Assembly: GCA_031315995.1 (NCBI GenBank)
Contig: JALDRG010000002.1
Location: 372,001 to 436,000 of the forward strand
Direction of reading: 5' to 3'
DNA length: 64,000 nt
Source: Nitrospira sp.
GTDB lineage: Bacteria; Nitrospirota; Nitrospiria; Nitrospirales; Nitrospiraceae
The position numbers and the translations under genes were made by a program. Below the pieces are notes generated by a model. It worked only from the letters and a program-made list of their open reading frames with translations. It was not told the origin of the DNA and ran no database searches. Of this stretch, positions 56,720-62,621 are shown piece by piece (the first letter of the stretch is position 1; every line of letters starts with the position of its first letter).

Positions 56720-57079
56720 TCACTCACACCCATTTCTCCGCCCACTGGTCACGATCCCTTCTTTGTCCGCAAAAAAAATAAGCTGGCAATCCACGCCGCC
56801 ATAGAGCGGCAGCGTGTTGTACTCATCGGCCTGGCCCGGCAGGCGGTCGATGGTCATATCCCACACCATTTCGACCGTACCGTCCTCCGCTTCCTTCGGA
56901 TGCAGATTCGGCGGGCCAAGTTCCAAATAGAGATCTTCCTTGTGCTTCCCGATCCACCGTGTGACGACATCGTCCCACGTTTGATAGATCCCCGTCACGC
57001 CAGGATCGGACCCGGTCTTGCAGGCGGGTATCGCAAAGAGCACCACGATGAGTGCGAGGGCGGAGAGAGATGCCGTCAT
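56720..57079 (-). CDS. Small lipoprotein (119 aa), unknown
   Basis: GGAGGG lies seven bases before the ATG at 57079. Signal peptide (SALALIVVLFAIPAC) with lipobox. The mature part has VTRWIGKHKEDLYLELGPPNLHP and VEMVWDMTIDRLPG, resembling BamE/SmpA-like lipoproteins in length and in the G-x-P pattern, but I cannot assign it. It is the last gene of a minus-strand group after ybgC and the 37 aa gene. Confidence 0.65.
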   Translation of the reverse strand: MTASLSALALIVVLFAIPACKTGSDPGVTGIYQTWDDVVTRWIGKHKEDLYLELGPPNLHPKEAEDGTVEMVWDMTIDRLPGQADEYNTLPLYGGVDCQLIFFADKEGIVTSGRRNGCE

Positions 57080-57143
57080 AGAACGACCCTCCAGACTAAG
57101 CCGGACCGCGGAAGGGAACAGACCGAGACCGGCCATGCCAGCG

Positions 57144-57257
57144 CTACGGTTTTTTCTTTTTCTTGTCGGAGGGATTATCGGAGAAGAGCAACCACGCCAG
57201 CACGACGAAACCGATCGCCACGCCAGTCACTGCCAACCATGTGCCGAGTTTGTCCAT
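57144..57257 (-). CDS. 37-residue membrane protein translationally coupled to ybgC
   Basis: The minus strand encodes MDKLGTWLAVTGVAIGFVVL then AWLLFSDNPSDKKKKKP, a single hydrophobic segment with a lysine tail, facing the cytosol by the positive-inside rule. Its ATG overlaps the ybgC stop (TAATG), and GAGGAG lies just upstream inside the ybgC tail. The gene is short but the composition is clean, so I consider it real. Confidence 0.7.
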   Translation of the reverse strand: MDKLGTWLAVTGVAIGFVVLAWLLFSDNPSDKKKKKP

Positions 57258-57658
57258 TAACTCCTCGTCTGTGGAGGTCCTTGTAACGCCGCCAGGATAA
57301 ATTTGTCGAGCCGCTTCACTTTCAAGCGGTCATCCACGGTCACGAGCTTGGCCGACCCTTCGACCACGAGACGCCCGCTCGTCTGTTCCCGCATGACATG
57401 GGCGACGGTGAAAGAGGCTTGGCTCACGACCGGCAACGTTGTCTCAATGATCAGGGTCTCACCATAACGACTCGGCGATCGATAGTCGAGCTCCGCATGC
57501 ACGACCATGAACTGCGTCCCGCTGTCGCGCAACTCGGCGACCGACAGGCCCCGTTCTTCGAGATACTGGGTTCTCGCGCGCTCGAAGTATTTGAGATAGT
57601 TTGCATAATACACCACGCCGCCGCAGTCGGTATCTTCGTAGTAGATTCTCACTTCCAT
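57257..57658 (-). CDS. ybgC: Acyl-CoA thioesterase YbgC
   Basis: 133 aa single hot-dog domain. YYEDTDCGGVVYYANYLKYFERARTQ is the family signature (catalytic Asp in DTDCGGVVYY) and YRSPSRYGETLIIET the hot-dog strand. In many bacteria ybgC heads the tol-pal operon; here tol-pal genes are absent. It removes CoA from short acyl chains, possibly in phospholipid turnover. Followed by two small membrane-associated genes. Confidence 0.9.
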   Translation of the reverse strand: MEVRIYYEDTDCGGVVYYANYLKYFERARTQYLEERGLSVAELRDSGTQFMVVHAELDYRSPSRYGETLIIETTLPVVSQASFTVAHVMREQTSGRLVVEGSAKLVTVDDRLKVKRLDKFILAALQGPPQTRS

Positions 57659-57688
57659 AGGAGCGGATGGCGTGTGGCGTGAACAAGA

Positions 57689-58190
57689 GCTTATGGCGAA
57701 TAGCTAATGGCTTATAGCAGGAGCCGCTTTCTTTACTCCAGCGCGTTCCGGAAGGCGTTGATGCTCTTTGCCAACTTCTGGCCTTCATCATACAAGGCCT
57801 TGTGTTCATGGTCGGCGATATTGCCTGCTCCGCGGCGAGACAGGACGCAGCCACGACTTCGACCGTCGAACCTAGGCAATTTCCAAATGATAGTCAAAAG
57901 CCTTTTTCGAGCTCTTGGCCGAACCTTCAGCAATGTTGAGGCAGATAGAATTCACGGCTCTGTTCATCTGCGATCTCAATCCATAGTCCTCGTGGCGAGG
58001 GAACCTCGCCGTCGCTAGATATACTTTCGAAGCGTAGTTTTTTGCCTTCTTCCAAATATTGAGCGTTTCAAACCTGAATGACACTTCTTGCTTTACACCT
58101 CTCGATCGCAGTCAGCAACGCTTCAGCGCAGTTATCCTTTGCCTCAACGGTCCCAATCTCCCTCTCAGCCATAGGCTATACGCCATAAGC
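57689..58190. repeat. Inverted repeats flanking the four-helix-bundle pseudogene
   Basis: The 24-base arms at 57689-57712 and 58167-58190 are inverted copies with 21 of 24 matches (AGCCAT..GCTAT.CGCCATAAGC). They bracket the frameshifted gene exactly, 20 bases beyond its stop and 82 before its start. Such symmetric flanks suggest a mobile or foldback unit. Confidence 0.6.
57733..58084 (-). pseudogene. Four-helix-bundle (23S rRNA IVS-type/S23) protein, two frameshifts
   Basis: Reading across frames gives a continuous match to this family: FRFETLNIWKKAKNYASKVY, then FPRHEDYGLRSQMNRA and NSICLNIAEGSAKSSKKAFDYHLEIA in the first frame; LGSTVEVVAASCLAAEQ in the next; and GNIADHEHKALYDEGQKLAK in the third. 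Two single-base losses (near 57876 and 57830) would explain it. Not in the expected rRNA context, so a free-standing member, now inactivated or mis-sequenced. Confidence 0.75.
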
Positions 58191-58200
58191 CATCAGCTCT

Positions 58201-59457
58201 TTAGAGCTTCAAAGTCGGAAACTTCGGCAGCGAGGACTCGCTCACGCCGTTGAGTTTCATCACCACGTCGGACAGCTGCTGCACCCGCTCGGACTTGATC
58301 GCCTCAAACCCGTGGCCCAACACGGCATGATCGGCGGCATCGAAGAGCGGTTTCATCTTGGGCCAATCGCGAAGGAAGGCCTGCCCCATCTGATCGCCGA
58401 AGCCGGCTAATGCCCGGAATTGACTCTGCAACGGCAGCTTATACTTCCCATCCACGTCATCCAGGTAACAGGTGCGGCAGGTGTCGCGCAGCGCTTCGGG
58501 GAGTTGCTCCGGCTGCACGTCCCAGGTCTTGATCTTGTGCTGCTTGAACAATTGCCGCTGGGCACAAGCCTCCATCGCGCGCACGAGCGTCACCATGGCC
58601 CGCTCATAATCATGGTCTACATGGGCGCGACGATGGGCATGCGCCAACAAATCCAGCACGACACCGTCTTTCACCTCAGCGGGATCCAGCACCAGCTTTT
58701 CCAAAAATCCGGTATTGGCTTTGATGAACGGCAGGAGCGCTTTCAACCCTGGCGGCCCACCCCAGACTGACGCCATGTCGAGCGCTTTCAGCGAGGTCTT
58801 GAGTTTCTCCCAGGCCTGGCGATAGTGAAACTGCTCCCATAACCCATAGCCCGTCGCCAGTTCGCCCAAGGCACGGTGGAGAGGCTTCTGCCCCCCGCTG
58901 ACACGAGCCTCCAATGTGTGAAACAGAGTGGCGGCAGCCTTGAACGATCCATGGTTAAACGCATCACTGGCCTCACGGCGCACGACGACCGCCGACTCGT
59001 CCCAGGGATTGCCTTGGAGCCACTGCTTGGTACGCTCGCCGATGGCGATCGTCTCACCCTCTTCGCGCCCCGTCGCATCAACCAGGCTGATTACCCGAGA
59101 GGTCCATGGTTGACTCACCATCGCCAACGCCGCCGCCATGGCGGGGGTGGCTCCGGTCAAATCCACCACCACGTCACCCACCTGCACCGACCAATTTCGA
59201 AAAAGATCATGAATCGTTCGTGACAAGGCCTGATGGCAGGCCATGACGTCGGACGGATCGGGCGTGATCACCCAATCCCAGCGCTTCGGCATCTGCTGCA
59301 CGAGCGGCTGCACCGCCTCCTCGACCTGCGCTTTCGCCGCTTCCGGCACAAAAAAGCAGAGCAATTCCGGTTGCAGCCGGTTGATGACATAGGCGGCGAG
59401 CGTCGGCGCGTCGGTGAACGCCAGGATGAGTGCTTTGACCGGGGTATCCGCAGGCAT
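58201..59457 (-). CDS. CARF-domain protein of the CRISPR-associated TIGR02710 type (418 aa)
   Basis: N-terminal CARF-like domain (about residues 1-150): KALILAFTDAPTLAAYVI, VVDLTGATPAMAAALAMV (the DxTGGT-like ring-nucleotide loop, here DLTGATP) and ISLVDATG. The C-terminal part has GVVLDLLAHAHRRAHVDHDY followed by ERAMVTLVRAMEACAQRQLF, the hallmark helix of TIGR02710/PF09670. It may respond to cyclic oligoadenylate. No cas gene, repeat array or other CARF gene lies in the window. Output function unknown; the final HAVLGHGF region could be a degenerate nuclease site. Confidence 0.7.
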   Translation of the reverse strand: MPADTPVKALILAFTDAPTLAAYVINRLQPELLCFFVPEAAKAQVEEAVQPLVQQMPKRWDWVITPDPSDVMACHQALSRTIHDLFRNWSVQVGDVVVDLTGATPAMAAALAMVSQPWTSRVISLVDATGREEGETIAIGERTKQWLQGNPWDESAVVVRREASDAFNHGSFKAAATLFHTLEARVSGGQKPLHRALGELATGYGLWEQFHYRQAWEKLKTSLKALDMASVWGGPPGLKALLPFIKANTGFLEKLVLDPAEVKDGVVLDLLAHAHRRAHVDHDYERAMVTLVRAMEACAQRQLFKQHKIKTWDVQPEQLPEALRDTCRTCYLDDVDGKYKLPLQSQFRALAGFGDQMGQAFLRDWPKMKPLFDAADHAVLGHGFEAIKSERVQQLSDVVMKLNGVSESSLPKFPTLKL

Positions 59458-59599: not shown

Positions 59600-60034
59600 A
59601 TGACCTGGTGGCTCTGGGCATTTCTGGGATTGATCCTGCTGGGCGTCGAGATCACCACGCCCGGCGGCTTCTACATCCTCTTCTTCGGCCTCTCAGCCCT
59701 GGTGGTGGCCGCCCTCGCAGGCTTCGAACTGGTTGGCTCCGAGTGGATCCAGTGGTTGCTGTTCTCGGTCATGTCCGTGGCCTCGCTCTTCATCTTCCGT
59801 GGTCCGCTGCTGAGCATGATCAAGTCGCACGAGACCGTCGGCCCACCCATCGATACGATGGTCGGCGAGATCGCCATCCCGATGGAAAATTTGGCGCCGG
59901 GCAGCACGGGCAAGGCCGAGTGTCGCGGGACGGCATGGACCGCCCACAACCCCGGCCCGACCGGTCTCCTCAAGGGACAACGCAGTCTCGTCGAGCGGGT
60001 CGAGGGCCTCGCCCTCTGGCTCAAATCAGAATAG
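59600..60034 (+). CDS. NfeD family membrane protein (144 aa)
   Basis: GGAG lies before the ATG. Three to four hydrophobic segments (WWLWAFLGLILLGVEI, FYILFFGLSALVVAALAGF, WIQWLLFSVMSVASLFIF) then a cytosolic OB domain (ENLAPGSTGKAECRGTAWTA, VERVEGLALWLK). NfeD partners SPFH proteins, and the SPFH gene follows 33 bases downstream. Probably organises membrane microdomains or assists FtsH/protease quality control. Confidence 0.88.
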   Translation: MTWWLWAFLGLILLGVEITTPGGFYILFFGLSALVVAALAGFELVGSEWIQWLLFSVMSVASLFIFRGPLLSMIKSHETVGPPIDTMVGEIAIPMENLAPGSTGKAECRGTAWTAHNPGPTGLLKGQRSLVERVEGLALWLKSE

Positions 60035-60067
60035 CGTGAGGGAGTATTTCTTATGGAGGAGACAGGT

Positions 60068-61006
60068 ATGTCCGGCGGCTTGATGGTCATGATCTTCCTC
60101 GCGTTCCTGGTGGTGCTGGTCATTGCCAAGACCGCCCGCATCGTGCCCCAGCAAAGCGCCTACGTGGTCGAACGGCTAGGCCGCTACTCGCGGACCCTCG
60201 GCGCGGGGTTCCACATCCTGATTCCCTTCATCGACGCCATCCAATACAAACATTCCCTCAAGGAAACCGCCATCGACATCCCGGAACAGGTCTGTATCAC
60301 GCGGGACAACGTGCAGGTCGGAGTGGACGGCATTCTGTACCTCAAGGTGCTCGACGCCCAGCGCGCCTCCTACGGCATCAGCGACCACCGCTTCGCCATT
60401 TCCCAGCTCGCCCAGACCGCCCTGCGCAGTGAGATCGGCAAGATCGATCTCGACAAGAGTTTCGAAGAACGCACCAACATCAATGCCCAGGTCGTCAACG
60501 AACTCGACAAGGCCTCGGAGCCTTGGGGCGTCAAGGTGCTCCGATATGAGATCAAGAACATCACGCCGCCCAAGGACGTGCTCAATGCGATGGAAAAGCA
60601 GATGCGCGCGGAACGGGAAAAACGCGCGGTGATCTTGAATTCCGAAGGCGAACGGGATGCCGCCATCAACGAGGCGGAAGGCAAGAAGCAGCAGGTGATC
60701 AAGGCCTCGGAAGCCAGGAAGCAACAGCAGATCAACGAAGCGGAAGGCGCGGCGGCCGCCATCACGGCGATTGCCACCGCTACCGCCGAAGGCCTGCGCA
60801 GGGTCGCTGAATCCACTCAGATTCCCGGCGGCTATGAGGCGATCCAGCTGCGCGTCGCCGAACAGTACATCGGCCAGTTCGGTGAGCTGGCCAAGACCAG
60901 CAACACCCTCGTGCTGCCGGCCAATGTCGCCGACGTGGGCTCCATGCTGGCGCTGGCCATGAACATGATCACGAAACGGTCTTCGCCCACGCCGCCGGGA
61001 AAGTAA
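60068..61006 (+). CDS. SPFH/Band 7 (stomatin, QmcA-like) protein (312 aa)
   Basis: ATG 60068 is preferred because GGAGGAG (60055-60061) lies six bases upstream; the ATG at 60053 overlaps that box. One N-terminal membrane segment (LMVMIFLAFLVVLVIAKTA), then the Band 7 domain (RIVPQQSAYVVERLGRYSR, GVKVLRYEIKNITPP) and an alanine- and glutamate-rich coiled coil (KQQVIKASEARKQQQINEAE). Works with NfeD, encoded directly upstream. Confidence 0.92.
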   Translation: MSGGLMVMIFLAFLVVLVIAKTARIVPQQSAYVVERLGRYSRTLGAGFHILIPFIDAIQYKHSLKETAIDIPEQVCITRDNVQVGVDGILYLKVLDAQRASYGISDHRFAISQLAQTALRSEIGKIDLDKSFEERTNINAQVVNELDKASEPWGVKVLRYEIKNITPPKDVLNAMEKQMRAEREKRAVILNSEGERDAAINEAEGKKQQVIKASEARKQQQINEAEGAAAAITAIATATAEGLRRVAESTQIPGGYEAIQLRVAEQYIGQFGELAKTSNTLVLPANVADVGSMLALAMNMITKRSSPTPPGK

Positions 61007-61060: not shown

Positions 61061-61639
61061 ATGAAAGAACTTGCCATCAAGGCCTTCGACGACAGCGCCG
61101 AGATCAAGCGGCGCTTCGCGCGGGAGCATGCCGACAGGATCGTGCAGGTCGCGCAACTCCTGGGCCGCGCCTTTCGCGCCGGACACAAAGTCTTGCTCTT
61201 CGGCAACGGCGGGAGCGCCACCGATGCCGCGCACATCGCCGCCGAGTTTGTCGGCCGGTACAAGCGTGAACGCGCCCCGTTGCCGGCCATTGCCCTCGCC
61301 ACCGACATCGCGGCCATTACCTGCATCGCCAACGACTATGGGTTTGAGGAGCTCTTCGCCCGCCAGATGCGCGCGCACGGGCAGCAGGGCGACGTCGCAA
61401 TCGCGATCAGCACCAGCGGCAACTCCCCCAATGTTTTGAAAGGTGTCGAGGCAGCCACATCCATGGGCCTCACCACGATCGCCTGGACCGGCGGATCGGG
61501 CGGCAAGCTGGCCGGCATGGTCGAGTATGCCTTCGTCGTGCCCTCCACGCTGACTGCCCGTATTCAGGAAAGTCACATCACATTGGGCCATGTGCTCTGC
61601 GAGCTCATTGAGGATCACGTTCTTGCCAACCAGGCGTAA
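61061..61639 (+). CDS. gmhA: Phosphoheptose isomerase
   Basis: Isomerises sedoheptulose-7-phosphate to D-glycero-D-manno-heptose-7-phosphate, the first step of LPS core heptose synthesis. 192 aa SIS protein: LLFGNGGSATDAAHIAAEFVG, STSGNSPNVLKGVEAA, GLTTIAWTGGSGGKLAG and HITLGHVLCELIE (zinc-binding His). Fits GmhA rather than other SIS proteins. The next gene overlaps it by 50 bases, so the two are coupled. Confidence 0.93.
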   Translation: MKELAIKAFDDSAEIKRRFAREHADRIVQVAQLLGRAFRAGHKVLLFGNGGSATDAAHIAAEFVGRYKRERAPLPAIALATDIAAITCIANDYGFEELFARQMRAHGQQGDVAIAISTSGNSPNVLKGVEAATSMGLTTIAWTGGSGGKLAGMVEYAFVVPSTLTARIQESHITLGHVLCELIEDHVLANQA

Positions 61640-62621
61640 GCGTCCCACTGCAGCATCCGCGCCCCCAGCGATCATTCCGCCGATCGATGCCTCGCGCCTG
61701 AAGACCTATCCGCTCCAACGGCGTCATAGCAAGGTCCAGGTCTCGAACTTTGCCAAGATCTGGACACGTGGTGGATCGTTCGCACGTTTTCTGAACTCGC
61801 TCCCCGATATCCTGGCCGTCAAAACGTTGCGAGAGGTGGCGCAGGCTATTGCCAAGGCTCATCGCAACGACCGACCGGTGATCGTCGGCATGGGCGCCCA
61901 TGTCGTGAAAGTGGGGCTGGGCCCGCTCCTCGTAGATCTCATGCAACGGGGCATCGTCACCGCGCTCGCCATGAACGGCGCCGTCATCATCCATGACTTC
62001 GAACTGGCGTTCATGGGACACACCTCCGAAGAGGTGGACGCGGAGATCGACTCCGGTCGATTCGGCATGGCAGAGGAAACCGGCCGCATGCTGAATGAGG
62101 CGATCACCCTTGGCATGAAGGAAGGCCAGGGCCTCGGGGAATCGCTCGGCTGTTACATCCATCGACGCAAGCAGCAGTTTCCTCATCGCGCCACAAGCCT
62201 GCTGGCCACCGGCTTCCGGCTGGGTCTCCCCGTCACCGTGCACGTGGCCGTTGGAACCGACATCATCCATATGCATCCCTCCGCCGACGGCGCCGCGATC
62301 GGGGCAGGCTCGCTGCTCGATTTTCGTCGGCTGGCAGCGGTGGTCTCCGGGATGGAAGGCGGGGTGTATCTCAATCTGGGGTCCGCCGTGATTTTGCCCG
62401 AAGTGTTTTTGAAAGCCGTCTCGCTCGGGCGGAACCTCGGGCATCCGTTGACGAACATTACGACGGTGAACATGGATTTCCTCACGCACTATCGTCCCAT
62501 GACGAACGTTGTGCGCCGCCCCACCCAGAAGGGCGGCAAGGGATACGCATTGACCGGCCATCACGAGATCATGGTTCCGCTGCTGGCCGCCGCGGTCATT
62601 GAAGAATTGTCCGGCCGCTGA
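61590..62621 (+). CDS. Deoxyhypusine-synthase-like conserved protein
   Basis: About 343 aa if the ATG at 61590 is used (50 bases inside gmhA). No better ATG exists before the conserved core; a TTG further in is possible. VIVGMGAHVVKVGLGP, AVIIHDFELAFMGHTSEEVD, GRFGMAEETGRMLNEA and VAVGTDIIHMHPSADG resemble the bacterial deoxyhypusine-synthase-related family by eye. The eukaryotic catalytic Lys loop is not obvious, so that reaction is doubtful. Linked to gmhA, a role in the same envelope-sugar context is conceivable. Confidence 0.6.
   Translation: MCSASSLRITFLPTRRKRPTAASAPPAIIPPIDASRLKTYPLQRRHSKVQVSNFAKIWTRGGSFARFLNSLPDILAVKTLREVAQAIAKAHRNDRPVIVGMGAHVVKVGLGPLLVDLMQRGIVTALAMNGAVIIHDFELAFMGHTSEEVDAEIDSGRFGMAEETGRMLNEAITLGMKEGQGLGESLGCYIHRRKQQFPHRATSLLATGFRLGLPVTVHVAVGTDIIHMHPSADGAAIGAGSLLDFRRLAAVVSGMEGGVYLNLGSAVILPEVFLKAVSLGRNLGHPLTNITTVNMDFLTHYRPMTNVVRRPTQKGGKGYALTGHHEIMVPLLAAAVIEELSGR

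Follow-up and report, generated by a model that had tools for sequence, protein, structure and literature searches.

The established role of CARF-HEPN proteins is that of suicide RNases set off by an alarm signal. Csm6 is active as a dimer, and in the Thermus thermophilus enzyme (TtCsm6) the K137A substitution is reported to abolish both cA4 binding and RNA degradation, T59A/S60A to abolish RNA degradation, and each of R415A, N416A and H422A to abolish the RNase activity (PMC10897365). CARF genes unlinked to CRISPR are already known: a 2014 survey recorded only nine of 145 CARF-bearing genomes with neither cas1 nor cas10, and it describes the CARF domain of RtcR, which mostly lacks the strand-4 K/R and is found outside CRISPR (PMC4012209), indicating that CARF pockets can take other ligands. 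RtcR shares this CRISPR-free setting with the gene reported here, but is itself a transcription activator fused to AAA+ and HTH domains. HEPN domains devoid of the conserved polar residues have been proposed to be nucleic-acid-binding domains (PMC3710099). In the open-licence literature, a scope that leaves the main CARF classification paper outside, we found no description of a lineage-wide, doubly inactive Csm6.

The 64,000-nucleotide stretch of a Nitrospira genome analyzed here (hereafter the window) carries, at 58201–59457 on the minus strand, an ATG-initiated open reading frame encoding a protein of 418 residues. The original prediction, made from the sequence alone, had assigned it to the CARF proteins of the TIGR02710 family, and profile comparisons bore this out. 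The TIGR02710 profile matched over its full length with 127 bits against a cut-off of 83.9, and both PF09670 (Csm6 HEPN; 69.4 bits, residues 267–403) and PF22205 (Csm6 6H; 42.4 bits, residues 160–225) scored above their curated cut-offs. The PADLOC profile PDLC01812 (CARF1--CARF_HEPN) matched positions 1–418 of 418 with 810 bits; thus this protein or a close relative has been catalogued before as CARF-HEPN, in a PADLOC record that carries no description. An AlphaFold model of the single monomer, built from 51 aligned homologs and carrying no information on dimer surfaces, reached a mean pLDDT of 92.5. The model together with structure matches delimits a CARF domain (residues 7–150; 59008–59439, minus strand), and in combination with the Pfam matches it delimits a 6H helical linker (residues 151–262; 58672–59007, minus strand) and a HEPN domain (residues 263–418; 58204–58671, minus strand). 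The best solved relatives of the model are TtCsm6 structures (Foldseek E 8e-14), which have the same domain order and alignable motifs; across PDB entries 5FSH, 8JBB, 8JBC and 8JH1, VIA gave Z scores of 19.6–21.8 over 377–381 residues, the best (21.8) over 381 aligned residues with an rmsd of 7.7. A phmmer search of the single protein against the PDB returned chance matches only, whereas a profile search did align TtCsm6. Pfam, AlphaFold, Foldseek and VIA all find the CARF–helical linker–HEPN fold of Csm6, and the protein is a CARF-6H-HEPN member of the TIGR02710/Csm6 family. As to the motifs on which the prediction had drawn, the DLTGATP loop exists, at residues 99–105 after CARF strand 4, but the 'RRA' helix (R276-R277) proved to be the first HEPN helix and not the active site.

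At about 19% identity to TtCsm6, the protein differs at the residues that matter for that enzyme. The profile alignment places K137 at P105, and R415, N416 and H422 at A375, D376 and H382, respectively, so that the R-X6-H of the HEPN domain is replaced by A375-D376 ... H382. We tallied these sites over 130 ortholog sequences from 129 genomes of the order Nitrospirales, leaving out the partial copies of G212, G338 and G362. No arginine occurs at position 375 in any of the 129 orthologs covering it (124 Ala, 2 Val, 2 Ser, 1 Thr), and the cA4-binding lysine at position 105 is found in none of 126. CARF motif I, at residues 15–17, has no conserved G or S/T, with S/T at position 17 in only one of 125 orthologs, and the pocket loop 14–18 is variable. 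The relatives outside this set are different. A sister group in the same phylum, f21, retains the Arg (5/5), the Lys (4/4) and the S/T (4/4), and ten type III-type relatives retain all three throughout, as GGTK and RN...H; in six of these ten (G184, G341, G237, G365, G243 and G322) the same contig carries a Cas10 match no more than about 20 kb away, and in the other four the match is weak or on a different contig. Judged from the alignment, the protein has neither the HEPN R-X4-6-H catalytic motif nor the CARF motif II lysine of a Csm6 RNase. The proposal that it is a ring-nucleotide sensor or an active solitary effector is thus not supported, because the residues required in TtCsm6 are replaced in every Nitrospirales ortholog covering the lysine and the arginine. 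His382 is nevertheless kept in 119 of 129 orthologs, and all 129 have H, Q, R or K at residue 377, which leaves room for an unusual active site that these two positions may form. We also considered a strict CxxC metal site for the HEPN domain but dropped it, as both cysteines are present in only 105 of 130 orthologs.

The gene stands apart from CRISPR-Cas, as originally predicted. The window holds no closely spaced direct repeats of at least 22 bp, and hence no CRISPR array was seen in it. The whole genome (3.88 Mb, 37 contigs, 93.6% complete; close named relatives Candidatus Nitrospira defluvii, 92%, and an uncultured Nitrospira MAG, 96%) gave no match to the Cas10 palm (PF22335) or to Cas1, and a type III locus elsewhere in this genome was accordingly rejected. 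We surveyed 395 genomes of the phylum Nitrospirota, of which 140 belong to three families (f1–f3) of the order Nitrospirales. An ortholog is present in 132 of these 140 (106/110, 25/27 and 1/3, respectively), whereas a fourth family, represented by three genomes, yielded none; among the genomes listed as having no match, which are ordered by kinship, the listing extends past these families. G322, whose single match is a type III-type copy, was scored as having no ortholog. A convincing Cas10 (at least 65 bits) occurs in nine of the 140 genomes, and 124 of the 132 ortholog-bearing genomes have none. Seven further genomes of f1–f3 gave Cas10-profile matches of about 30 bits or less; the three inspected (G145, G276 and G191) turned out to be GGDEF proteins, and the other four (G169, G214, G252 and G318) were counted as not convincing. 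Seventy of the 132 ortholog-bearing genomes have no Cas1 or Cas10 match whatever, weak ones included, and among the genomes assembled into a single contig the ortholog is present in 15 of 15, two of them with Cas10 and 13 with no convincing one. Hence the link to CRISPR-Cas implied by the family name TIGR02710 is absent from the window's genome, and likewise from the 124 genomes just mentioned as far as a convincing Cas10 is concerned. Two irregular copies were observed. In G332, a genome 89% complete, the ortholog is divided over several frames (G332:C3:55467-56471; L207, L216, L218), and is therefore either broken or badly assembled. In G316, a HEPN-end fragment with a stop (G316:C56:139783-140043; L201 / L215) follows some 1.2 kb after the intact gene and is a partial tandem duplication.

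The neighborhood was compared over 26 ortholog loci and four f21 loci, for homologs of the window's genes only. Downstream, a YbgC/FadM-like 4HBT thioesterase gene (57257–57658, minus strand) follows on the same strand in 23 of 26 ortholog loci at a distance of no more than 500 bp; in 13 the gap is 31 bp or less. Divergently oriented are an NfeD-like and an SPFH/Band_7 gene (59600–61006, plus strand), found in only part of the family, and the genes for a GmhA-like SIS protein and a GSU2086-family protein (61061–62621, plus strand). The GmhA-like gene lies divergent upstream in 22 of 26 loci, and the GSU2086-family protein next to it (61590–62621; NF052581, 446 bits) is an order-wide neighbor of the CARF-HEPN locus. 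None of the four f21 loci has the thioesterase/GmhA/NfeD/SPFH neighborhood. The window further encodes, at 56720–57136 on the minus strand, a 138-residue protein with a possibly lipoprotein-like start and no Pfam or NCBIfam match. In Nitrospirales the gene is thus inherited vertically with conserved neighbors, and is a near-core, syntenic gene of the order and not a stray effector.

A decayed mobile unit had been proposed as a possible partner in a shared pathway. The unit itself is most likely a frameshifted 23S_rRNA_IVP (PF05635) insertion element, which fills the 542-base spacer between the CARF-HEPN and thioesterase genes (57659–58200, minus strand) and retains a 79-residue frame (PF05635, 74.8 bits) and 29-nt terminal inverted repeats of 83% complementarity. 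Seven window ORFs tried as mobile-element remnants had no Pfam match, the PF05635 frame coming from a later search; the folding of the spacer is unremarkable (z −1.71), and an Rfam scan of the window found one tRNA and nothing else. The element is single-copy in its own genome. Related elements occupy the same spot in several relatives, and in N. defluvii the PF05635 gene found there is a different one, so that it looks like a recurrent insertion site, and many relatives have a gap of only a few bases and no element. These observations speak against a shared pathway; the element is a later, unrelated insertion between two older neighbors, outside the conserved unit and no partner of the CARF-HEPN gene.

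Phylogenetic analysis of 48 sequences, rooted by midpoint only, placed the Nitrospirales orthologs in a single clade (support 100/100) adjoining f21, which forms its own clade (97/96); a 100/100 branch sets the two apart from the type III-type group. The f21 orthologs (L056–L059) share with those of Nitrospirales a stand-alone chromosomal context, but differ in having intact sites, other neighbors and, in four of five genomes, a convincing Cas10 elsewhere. Three of them (L056, L057 and L058) have a common housekeeping-type neighborhood away from cas genes, with both CARF and HEPN motifs intact; the neighboring products, read from translations and not from a family search, we take to be Rho, MurA and NAD kinase. 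This combination of housekeeping-type context, intact sites and Cas10 elsewhere suggests that relocation came first and site loss later, an order inferred from f21.

Given that the fold is kept while the sensing and cutting residues are lost, the protein probably has a different job now. We consider it likely that it is an exapted, probably non-catalytic Csm6, kept lineage-wide and no longer a cyclic-oligoadenylate-triggered RNase. In a putative history, the ancestor, a type III CRISPR effector resembling Csm6/TIGR02710 proteins, would have settled at a chromosomal site remote from cas genes and been retained as a lineage-wide gene of Nitrospirales; it would then have lost the catalytic HEPN arginine and the cA4-binding lysine while keeping the Csm6-like fold. 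Such a protein would give no response of a known type to cyclic oligoadenylates and no R-X4-6-H RNA cleavage. It would most likely be a dimer without catalytic activity, contacting a protein or RNA partner through its conserved 6H and HEPN surfaces, with a CARF domain that is mainly structural or retuned to another ligand; in many relatives its gene probably shares a transcript with the thioesterase gene downstream. From the conservation pattern, we infer that its present role may be that of a dimeric binding or scaffold protein. We also lean, somewhat cautiously, toward the broader view that a type III effector gave rise to a housekeeping protein of the whole nitrifier order, shedding its sensing and nuclease chemistry, with its fold and 6H-HEPN surfaces kept for a new cellular role and f21 preserving an intermediate step, already relocated but with intact sites.

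The distribution of constraint along the protein bears on these readings. Strong purifying selection acts on the ortholog: within the genus, 17 of 18 pairs have a dN/dS of 0.050–0.128, and the closest pair stands at 0.206. Conservation of 95% or more is seen in 96 of the 415 alignment columns (CARF, 18 of 148; 6H, 34 of 112; HEPN, 44 of 155). Among pairs at 35–65% identity, the orthologs have a mean CARF/HEPN identity ratio of 0.74 (4970 non-independent pairs from 125 sequences), against 1.13 for the type III-type relatives (31 pairs); the six f21 pairs, all of them used and with an overall identity of about 0.73, give 1.10. The CARF domain is thus the fastest-evolving domain in the orthologs, opposite to the pattern in type III relatives, and together with the column counts this indicates that constraint is now weakest on the sensor domain. 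Newly conserved residues of the orthologs include W60-D61-W62, W312, C327, Q346 and Q394; the first three, in the CARF domain, are specific to Nitrospirales and present in 125, 125 and 122 of 126 orthologs. This newly conserved W60-D61-W62 and the intact CARF fold, along with the example of RtcR, whose CARF functions outside CRISPR with no K/R (PMC4012209), would fit a sensor of a new ligand, such as a nucleotide sugar or RNA ends, relaying its signal through conformational change with altered or absent HEPN chemistry; since the pocket loop 14–18 is not conserved and CARF evolves faster than the rest, we regard such a sensor as unlikely.

Less probable still is a solitary CARF-HEPN effector that works and is switched on by a cyclic nucleotide from a source other than type III. 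Its family scores do lie well above the cut-offs and His382 is mostly retained, and a predicted minimal module of Cas10 plus CARF-HEPN makes non-CRISPR cOA systems conceivable (PMC8730458). Against it stand the loss of the catalytic Arg in 129 of 129 orthologs and of the cA4 Lys in 126 of 126, a CARF domain that is the least conserved of the three, and the search for a cyclase: in the window's genome, SMODS (PF18144) had no match and mCpol only sub-cut-off ones (best 14.2 bits against 26.4), so that no cyclase of an mCpol- or CD-NTase-linked CARF system was found there.

Type III-type copies with RN...H and GTK do occur in seven Nitrospirales genomes (G127, G218, G250 twice, G262, G270, G376 and G322), being the sole copy found in G322; the AlphaFold model of an intact paralog has a pLDDT of 86.3. 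G262 has such a copy with no detected Cas10, and the Cas10-positive G328, G179 and G199 have no such copy. Dead and intact copies stand together in several type III genomes and Csm6 functions as a dimer (PMC10897365), which raises the idea of a dominant-negative partner or cOA sponge that holds incoming type III systems or active Csm6 copies in check. We hold this to be very improbable, as a convincing Cas10 is missing from 124 of 132 ortholog-bearing genomes, the protein is only about 28–32% identical to four intact Nitrospirales copies, and cOA binding is not expected. Finally, a slowly decaying relic with no function, for which one might cite the loss of both active sites, the broken-looking G332 copy and the partial duplicate in G316, is rejected as scarcely credible because it is contradicted by purifying selection (dN/dS about 0.05–0.13), alongside presence in 132 of 140 genomes and the 96 highly conserved columns.

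In summary, the exapted Csm6 proposed here retains the domain order of TtCsm6, but K137, R415 and N416 are replaced and its genome has no Cas10. It likewise departs from the TIGR02710/PF09670 proteins of type III loci, of which the type III-type relatives tested score 193–243 bits against 127 here and keep GGTK and RN...H, whereas this protein has neither site and no cas linkage. Annotation of such genes as TIGR02710/Csm6 would mean that CRISPR effectors are overcounted in the defense-gene counts of Nitrospira. The staged series of type III-type, relocated intact and relocated dead proteins makes the transition testable. If true, our reading would provide a clear case of a CRISPR effector recruited into ordinary cell biology.
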